From: Acidobacteriota bacterium
GTDB lineage: Bacteria > Acidobacteriota > UBA6911
Length of the DNA: 64,000 nt
NCBI GenBank assembly: GCA_012719355.1
Contig: JAAYAM010000214.1
Span: 28,926 to 92,925, forward strand
Direction of reading: 5' to 3'
Shown here: positions 42,196 to 44,852 of the stretch, piece after piece
Layout of the letters: each line of letters starts with the position of its first letter
Numbering within the stretch: the stretch's first letter is position 1
Position numbers and translations under genes: made by a program
Notes under the pieces: generated by a model
Seen by the model: only the letters and a program-made list of their open reading frames with translations
Told to the model about the DNA's origin: nothing
Database searches by the model: none

Positions 42196-43506
42196 CTATG
42201 CCTGCAGATCCATGCTGCCGGCAAGATACGACTCGTAGGCCGCGAGATCGAAATGCCCGTGTCCTGAAAGGTTGAAGAGGATCACCTTTTTCTCGCCTGC
42301 TTCACGGGCCTTGAGCGCATGGACAATCACGCTGTGGATCGCGTGCGCGCTCTCGGGAGCTGGAATGGTCCCCTCGCACTGGGCGAATTTCACGGCGCTG
42401 GCGAAGACTTCTCCCTGGGGATAAGCTTCCGCCTCAACCAGTCCGGCAGCCAGAAGATGGCTTACAAGCGGCGCGGAGCCATGATATCGGAGACCACCGG
42501 AATGGACCGGAGGAGGAATGAACTTGTGTCCGAGGGTATGCATCATCATGAGAGGCGTGTTGCCAGCAACATCTCCGAAATCATACTCACGCCTGCCGGC
42601 GGTCAGGGAAGCACAAGACCGCGGCTCAACAGCAATTGCACGGAGATTCTTCCTGGTGCCGCTGATTTTGTCTCTGAGGAACGGAAACGCGAGTCCGCCG
42701 AAATTGCTCCCGCCGCCATGGCAGCCGATAATGATGTCCGGATACTCCCCGGCGATTTCCATTTGCTTGATCGCCTCCTGCCCGATAATTGTCTGGTGCA
42801 GCAGGACGTGGTTGAGGACGCTTCCCAACGCATACCTCGTATCGTCGCGCTTCACTGCGTCCTCGACCGCCTCCGAGATCGCGAGCCCCAGGCTTCCGCT
42901 GCAGTCGGGATCTTCGGTCAGAGCCTTTCGTCCTGCTTCAGTCAGGTTGGACGGACTGGCAACCACGTCCGCACCGTAAGTCTTCATCATCACACGACGG
43001 TAGGGCTTCTGGTTGAAGCTGACTTTGACCATGTAGACCATGCACTCCAGTCCCATCAGCTTGCAGGCGCAGGCGAGAGCGCTTCCCCACTGTCCCGCTC
43101 CGGTCTCGGTGGACAGTCGCTTCACACCCTCCTTCTTGTTCAAATATGCCTGCATCAGGGCCGTGTTCAGCTTATGGCTGCCGACCGGACTGACGTGCTC
43201 GGATTTGTAGTAGATCCTTGCGGGTGTATCCAGCGCTTCTTCAAGCGCCCGCGCGCGGAAAACGGGACTGGGCCTGTACAGCCGGTAAATGTCGCGTACC
43301 TCGTCGGGAATTTCGATCATTCGTTCCTGAGTGATCTCATGCTCAATGACGCCCATGGGGAAAATCGGAGCCAGCATGTCCGGATTGATCGGCTCCCGTG
43401 TCGCCGGATGTAACGGAGGAGGAAGCGGGGTCGGCATATCCGGCTGGATATTGTAGAAGTGTGTCGGAATTTCGGATTCCGGCAAAGTGATCTTGGTGTC
43501 AGTCAT
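42196..43506 (-). CDS. TrpB2-type tryptophan synthase beta-like protein
   Basis: 436 aa; [25 protein letters not shown] (PLP Lys), [21 protein letters not shown]. Confidence 0.93.
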
Positions 43507-43692
43507 GAGAGTCCTCCTTAAGTGAGAATTCCGAGGATAACATATGATGACTCTGAGATTTCAGAAATTTAACCGAGATCCTCTTTTGACACAGCTGTCG
43601 GCCGTTCGCCTGCGTAGTTCTACGCACCGGTCATTGAGTATTTGCACGAATTGAAGAATTGTATAACCGGATGTTTAATGGCCATCGCTCAT

Positions 43693-43892
43693 GTTCGTCC
43701 GGTCCACGTCGCGATAGCACACCGTATGATTTGCTATGGCGAGGTGGACCCTGACGAGGAGGGTCACAAAGGAGCGCGAGCAAACACTCCGCATACCCGG
43801 CGGTCGCATCCCCGTGAGACCGCTCCTGCCTGAAAAACCTGCTGCGAACACACGGGGTTCCGGTCTCCTGACCGGAACCCCGGTTCTCTTTT
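43693..43892 (+). ncRNA. Putative structured intergenic RNA ending in a terminator-like hairpin
   Basis: Long hairpin 43701-43750, competing hairpin 43747-43765, hairpin 43800-43823, and a 12-bp perfect hairpin 43854-43881 followed by GGTTCTCTTTT; no protein family recognised. Confidence 0.4.
43854..43890 (+). terminator. Hairpin terminator (GGGGTTCCGGTC-TCCT-GACCGGAACCCC)
   Basis: Perfect 12-bp stem, tetraloop, pyrimidine/T-rich tail on + strand; may also serve the minus-strand cox operon. Confidence 0.55.
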
Positions 43893-43901
43893 CGGCACTG
43901 T

Positions 43902-44852
43902 CTACTTGAGATTTTTGATGAAATCGACCACCTGTGCCAGTTCGTCTTCGCTCAGGGAAGTCTTGGGCATGGAAGGAGGATAGCCTTTCAGGATGTCCGC
44001 CGCAGGATCCTGTATCGCCCGTACCAGATAATCGTCATCCACGACGATCTCCCGCGCGTTCCCCTTCGAATCGAGAACAGTCTGGGTCGTTGCGTAAATC
44101 CCCTTGAAACTGGGTCCTACCAGAGGGCTTCCATCAAAGGAATGACATGTGAGGCAGAATCTCTGATTCAGTACGTTGACGGCCGGATGAGCCGCAATCT
44201 CCGGAGGAAGGGTTGGGATTGTCCGCCCGGGAGTCGGCACAGTCTCGTCACCGAAGTACCATTCCTTGAACTCGTCAACGGGAACAACCACCGCCTTGCC
44301 AAGCATGTTCGCATGGCTTACCCCGCAAATGACCGTGCATTCAATGTCGAACGATCCGAGTTGGGTTGGAGAAAACCAGGTGTAGTTCTCCTTTCCCGGA
44401 ACGACGTCCTCCTTGATCCGGAAAGCCGGAATGAAGAATCCGTGGATTACATCGGCAGAACGAAGCACCAGCTTCACCGGCTTGTCCACCGCCAGAATCA
44501 GCTCGGTAGACTGCTTGCCATTAGGGTATTTGAACGACCATGCCCACTGGCGGCCGGTGACTTCTATCACCATCGCTTCCCGCGGCACCTCACGCATATA
44601 GCGGAAATCTGTCCACCCATAGACGAACATCATCAGGAACAGAATTGTCGGGACGATTGTCCATACCGTCTCGACCCATTTGTTGCCCTCGATATCGACG
44701 GCCCTGGGATGCCGCTTCCTGTTGTACTTGATCACGAAGTAAATCAAAGCCGCCGTGAGAAGAACCAGAAATACGGCGCACAACACGAAGATGAAGAGGA
44801 AGACCGAGTCAACCCTTCCAGCGGCGCTTGAAGCCTGGGGTATTATCGGCAT
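43902..44852 (-). CDS. coxB: Cytochrome c oxidase subunit II fused to cytochrome c domain (caa3-type)
   Basis: Two TM segments, CuA motif CTVICGVSHANM, then FCLTCHSFDGSPLVGPSFKG heme c domain. Confidence 0.95.
   Translation of the reverse strand: MPIIPQASSAAGRVDSVFLFIFVLCAVFLVLLTAALIYFVIKYNRKRHPRAVDIEGNKWVETVWTIVPTILFLMMFVYGWTDFRYMREVPREAMVIEVTGRQWAWSFKYPNGKQSTELILAVDKPVKLVLRSADVIHGFFIPAFRIKEDVVPGKENYTWFSPTQLGSFDIECTVICGVSHANMLGKAVVVPVDEFKEWYFGDETVPTPGRTIPTLPPEIAAHPAVNVLNQRFCLTCHSFDGSPLVGPSFKGIYATTQTVLDSKGNAREIVVDDDYLVRAIQDPAADILKGYPPSMPKTSLSEDELAQVVDFIKNLK

Follow-up and report, generated by a model that had tools for sequence, protein, structure and literature searches.

What is encoded in the gap between a TrpB-like gene (42196-43506, minus strand) and coxB (43902-44852, minus strand), both confirmed by NCBIfam, in the 64,000-nucleotide stretch of an Acidobacteriota genome analysed here (the window)? 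An earlier note on this DNA had proposed a structured plus-strand RNA ending at a terminator. This was borne out by the promoter-to-terminator layout, the predicted fold and compensatory changes among relatives, and we read the gap as a small-RNA (sRNA) gene on the plus strand (Table 1). The plus strand from 43660 to 43895 folded at −103.7 kcal/mol, compared to −79.5 ± 5.0 kcal/mol in dinucleotide shuffles (z = −4.8, 0/200 shuffles). A promoter read from sequence only, an intrinsic terminator, a conserved structure and the lack of a coding frame point to an independent intergenic sRNA gene, with transcription probably starting near 43686.

Table 1. Features of the sRNA locus (window positions).
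Feature	Position	Strand	Remarks
Promoter region	43610-43679	+	
Dyad 1, CTGCGTA-GTTC-TACGCAC (family TGRGTA-N4-TACYYA)	43610-43627	+	Putative NarL/FixJ-type regulator site; aligned in relatives
Dyad 2, TTGAGTA-TTTG-CACGAAT	43634-43651	+	24 bp downstream of dyad 1, touching the −35
−35, TTGAAG	43651-43656	+	Sequence-based; spacer of 17 bp to TTTAAT; aligns among relatives
−10, TTTAAT	43674-43679	+	TNTAAT aligned in most relatives
sRNA gene body	43686-43892	+	~205-207 nt; delimited from promoter to terminator, with fold z, covariance-model matches and no common reading frame
Copy-specific 5′ hairpin	43701-43750	+	Occupies the place of the GTGGGG/CCCCAC hairpin of ten relatives
Conserved domain: P1 (43774-43781 / 43822-43829) enclosing hairpin P2 (43800-43808 / 43815-43823)	43774-43829	+	
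Unpaired linker, AACCTGCTGCGAACA	43836-43850	+	Highly conserved; candidate seed or protein site
Intrinsic terminator	43853-43892	+	13-bp stem, T-rich tail; ends 9 bases from the coxB stop codon (convergent)

Searching 60 related genomes at the DNA level, we recovered the 3′ half of the gap in four genomes of the genus and at a second place in the own genome. Using a covariance model of the 3′ domain across the genus, we observed six copies in the own genome (G000): the window copy on C140, one on C191, two on C186, and one each on C303 and C304. G001 carries copies on C179, C301 and C328, a weak one on C731 and a degraded one on C40; G003, G005, G007, G008 and G009 have one copy each. The same search found zero copies in G002, G004 and G006, and the RNA is present in 7 of the 10 genomes of the genus. 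The locus is one of a family of sibling sRNA genes with at least six diverged copies in the own genome. Tail-to-tail placement with coxB was seen in five genomes, including two of the relatives from the DNA search and two recognised later; other copies lie elsewhere, and the siblings' loci have unrelated neighbour genes. Directly after the terminator of one sibling (L051 from ~9450; G000 C186:61452 onward) lies GTGCGCCCGGCAGGGCGCAC..., which we take to resemble the start of a group II intron at its 5′ end, perhaps one of a class that inserts behind terminators.

A survey of 396 genomes from the phylum gave no convincing member beyond the genus, apart from a possible one in G012. This match (same taxonomic family; 39 bits with R2) has a NarL-type regulator next to it and is perhaps a distant homologue; its upstream DNA lacks the promoter of the RNA family (15 of 27 consensus positions). 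Weak matches beside the regulator in G003 (37 bits) and G005 (33 bits) may be diverged copies. A match on C650 of G001 (36 bits) looked like a terminator only and was left uncounted, and phylum-wide matches of ≤33 bits were rejected on reading as mostly terminator-like. Viral contigs, searched for a phage origin, gave no match.

We assessed covariation in 13 copies using a three-helix model (P1, P2 and the terminator). In an alignment fitted to this model, which favours it and which misaligns the C303 and C304 copies (long insertions) in P2, 94.4% of pair cells were kept, and both-sided changes occurred in 16 pairs and 40 cells, compared to 7.9 and 12.1 in shuffles (0/500 as high). Sliding the partners as a control lowered pairing to 33-55%. 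The covariation signal is carried by P2 (92.7% of cells paired; 6 of 8 pairs changed on both sides) and the terminator (96% paired; 10 of 12 pairs changed on both sides). P1 was paired in 93.3% of cells; because its changes are one-sided only (for example, G-C to G-U), this long-range helix is likely real and not proven.

The earlier note had named compensatory substitutions as a check, and such changes were found in the homologous copies. Its hairpin GCGGTC/GACCGC (43800-43805 / 43818-43823) is present and conserved in relatives with compensatory changes. The same holds for its perfect hairpin at the 3′ end, with one correction: the stem has 13 bp (43853-43865 / 43870-43882, followed by GTTCTCTTTT) and not 12. 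A proposed alternative pairing, GGAGCG/CGCTCC, occurs where it was placed and is private to the window copy; what is conserved there is the long-range helix GCG-C-GAGC / GCTC-C-TGC (43774-43781 / 43822-43829). Between the P1/P2 domain and the terminator, the linker CCUGCUGCGAACA is unpaired and nearly invariant across most copies.

Two overlapping hairpins described earlier for the 5′ part of the RNA are found in the window, the first with arms 43701-43719 / 43732-43750 (17 of 19 positions complementary) and the second formed by GACCCT (43747-43752) and AGGGTC (43760-43765), which overlaps the 3′ arm of the first. Their interpretation as a competing-hairpin regulatory switch is unsupported because neither is conserved: both are private to the window copy, and in most relatives another hairpin takes their place. 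Ten copies have an upstream hairpin closed by GTGGGG/CCCCAC, and 9 of 14 copies carry 7-10 consecutive G in its apical loop or next to it; in the tenth hairpin copy, G1_328, the loop is degenerate. This upstream hairpin is absent from four copies, namely that of the window, G1_179, G1_301 and G0_186b. The inner stem shows little covariation alone (3 of 16 pairs). A pattern search for the G-run hairpin returned the same nine copies plus the degraded copy on C40 of G001, after exclusion of six further matches, which fell in G-rich or unrelated sequence; the reversed control pattern had no match. The degraded copy (L144; G001 C40:6194-6254, minus strand) has intact promoter dyads, a G-run hairpin and a decayed 3′ domain, lies upstream of an ECF-sigma-like gene and, by its hairpin, looks like an orthologue of the C191 copy. 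At another locus (L088; G009 C33), ~100-base tandem repeats with GGGGGG runs adjoin a promoter-pattern match.

Nearly every copy is preceded by the same promoter. The shared upstream block consists of TGRGTA-N4-TACYYA, eight bases and TGRGTA-NTT-NNN-CGAATTG, followed after ~17-18 bases by TNTAAT. It comprises two 18-bp dyads, both imperfect, whose centres are separated by 24 bp; the downstream one has the family form TGRGTA-N4-YACGAAT. In a comparison with shuffles that is partly circular and overstates independence, because the consensus was drawn from these copies, the window promoter matched the two-dyad consensus at 25 of 27 positions (best of 300 shuffles, 18), the 14 copies matched at 19-27, and 13 of 14 outscored every one of the 300 shuffles made from their respective upstream DNA. 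G1_328 was a weak match (3/300 shuffles as good). The fixed dyad-to-(−10) spacing across diverged siblings is, as we read the alignment, a stronger point than the shuffle scores. A sigma-54 promoter was considered and rejected on unfit spacing.

The dyads resemble NarL/FixJ response-regulator sites, and their half-sites are similar to the NarL heptamer TACYYMT, which offers a lead. Within the own genome, the perfect form of the first dyad has just two occurrences, one at C191 and one inside a coding sequence. In several RNA-bearing genomes, the second dyad element is also found ahead of protein genes; by eye, these encode a short CxxC protein, a mannose-1-phosphate guanylyltransferase-like protein and a receiver-like protein. 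The occurrence of this element before both RNAs and protein genes looks like a regulon. The same upstream element precedes the gene of a ~65-aa protein (MTTCSFRNLV..., CPIC motif) in five genomes of the genus (L090, L101, L096, L112 and L116), and the mannose-1-phosphate guanylyltransferase-like gene in three (L086, L098 and L113), which hints at a polysaccharide link.

Signalling genes occur near several copies: three LuxR-HTH response regulators in a run (L050), receiver proteins (L054 and L055) and histidine kinases (L044 and L048). Only some copies adjoin such genes, and a regulator- or kinase-type neighbour was seen at about five of a dozen locus types, which we judged to be more than chance. 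The C186 regulator at L050 (L050:7647-8297) resembles VraR and NarL. Its orthologues (79-100% identity) were present in exactly the 7 RNA-bearing genomes and none passed the cut-off in the other 3, a co-occurrence that is confounded by ancestry because the same 3 genomes are also without coxB. Two-component signalling thus seems to have the RNA family as its output. In L050, the three regulators are followed by a gene that, by eye, is polysaccharide-export-like.

We consider it probable that this locus belongs to a family of trans-acting sibling sRNAs activated by a NarL-type regulator. A NarL/FixJ (LuxR-HTH) regulator would bind the two dyads upstream of and touching the weak −35, and would activate RNA polymerase at TTGAAG-17-TTTAAT. 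The resulting ~205-nt RNA would fold into the 5′ hairpin, the P1/P2 domain and the terminator, leaving CCUGCUGCGAACA unpaired. It would then act in trans, most likely by pairing of the linker and, in most siblings, the G-run loop with mRNAs. Such pairing may be aided by Hfq, which is encoded in 10 of 10 genomes. Siblings with different neighbours would let one signalling system yield a shared RNA output from many loci.

A possible alternative, to which we give perhaps a quarter of our belief, is that the RNAs act as decoys and titrate a regulatory protein, as RsmY/RsmZ or CsrB do, with the linker and the G-run loop as protein sites. The layout is GacA-Rsm-like, with several diverged RNAs behind NarL/FixJ-type palindromic upstream sites, and CsrA was found in 5 of the 7 RNA-bearing genomes. 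A search of the own genome for the exact 12-nt complement of the linker matched only the RNA genes themselves, which counts against the pairing model and fits a conserved unpaired protein site. However, we observed no CsrA match in two carriers, G003 (96% complete) and G005 (98% complete), with incompleteness of these metagenome-assembled genomes as a caveat, and G004 has CsrA and no RNA. Nor did ANGGA motifs show a consistent excess: each RNA has 0-4, close to the number in shuffles. Because CsrA is missing in two carriers and ANGGA stands at shuffle level, trans pairing is favoured over a Csr-type decoy. Titration of CsrA is unlikely; decoy action on another protein is the main rival. In a bolder version, which we regard as rather doubtful, a hitherto undescribed signalling output system would consist of a NarL-type regulator and the six or more structured sibling RNAs that it drives. 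These RNAs, the majority of which expose a G-run loop, would sequester or recruit a non-CsrA protein, and a Gac/Rsm-like architecture would have evolved independently in Acidobacteriota.

A role in cis is far less probable. The RNA might serve the cox operon and trpB2 as a bidirectional terminator or as an antisense RNA, or it might be, as also proposed earlier, a minus-strand leader of trpB2. Its terminator lies close to the coxB stop codon, the tail-to-tail arrangement recurs in the five genomes mentioned above, and the minus strand of the whole gap also folds well (z = −4.1). However, G008 carries the RNA without a coxB match, and the role of the RNA is thus not tied to cytochrome oxidase; the siblings also lie near unrelated genes. 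The conserved dedicated promoter and the T-tail are oriented for the plus strand, and most copies are away from trpB2, which argues against the leader. A riboswitch or attenuator leader on the plus strand was rejected, as the gene that comes next is coxB, which lies on the opposite strand with its 3′ end facing the RNA, and the contexts of the siblings vary. A small protein gene, either the 63-aa ORF at 43642-43833 or its 51-aa part, is open in the window copy and, on the alignment, as good as refuted: the 51-aa frame is not conserved, no frame is shared among the relatives (indel lengths break the triplet pattern, and every frame contains stops), substitutions follow base pairing, and the 63-aa ORF starts upstream of the −10. 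With no common frame and convergent orientation to coxB, the favoured trans-acting sRNA is neither a leader nor a protein gene.

We compared the family with known RNAs. The earlier failure to match the locus to 6S RNA, SRP, tmRNA, RNase P or riboswitches was repeated in our searches: Rfam 15 gave nothing above the gathering threshold in the window, only a neighbouring tRNA gene passed among six loci searched at a permissive E-value, and ARAGORN found no tRNA or tmRNA. 6S RNA, suspected from a similar 3′ stretch and a size of ~200 nt, was rejected; the similarity is superficial, the RF00013 model did not match, and the genuine 6S RNA lies on another contig (82.5 bits). BjrC68 (RF02353) shares a terminator-like 3′ end with the family. 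The relatives score 17.5-19.6 bits, which is far below the gathering score of 39, and the match is essentially the terminator hairpin.

Regulator-driven sibling sRNAs are a known kind; for this family, its dyads and its structural domain, Rfam holds no match. A brief search of the open literature found no description of the family, which is weak evidence of absence. A 2022 review lists only four distinct annotated sRNAs in Acidobacteria (PMC9029176). A well-supported multi-copy family with a recognisable promoter offers a concrete, testable sRNA regulon for this phylum.

Sibling sRNAs such as PrrF1/2, OmrA/B and Rfr are likewise encoded by two or more related genes at different places in one genome (PMC4211561). 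The present family differs from them in having at least six copies and strong divergence between siblings, and Rfam searches detected no relation to known families. In layout the family is like GacA-RsmX/Y/Z, UvrY-CsrB/C and LetA-RsmY/Z, whose sRNAs are activated by NarL/FixJ-family regulators: there are several diverged sRNA genes per genome, each with an upstream palindrome, here the putative site of a LuxR-HTH regulator, and an intrinsic terminator. In contrast to those systems, the family has no consistent ANGGA enrichment, two of its carriers are without CsrA, and P1/P2 and the linker match no Rfam Rsm/Csr family. The TGRGTA-N4-TACYYA palindrome also differs from the GacA box. The family may represent an independent case of a response regulator feeding many sibling RNAs, in some genomes without CsrA.
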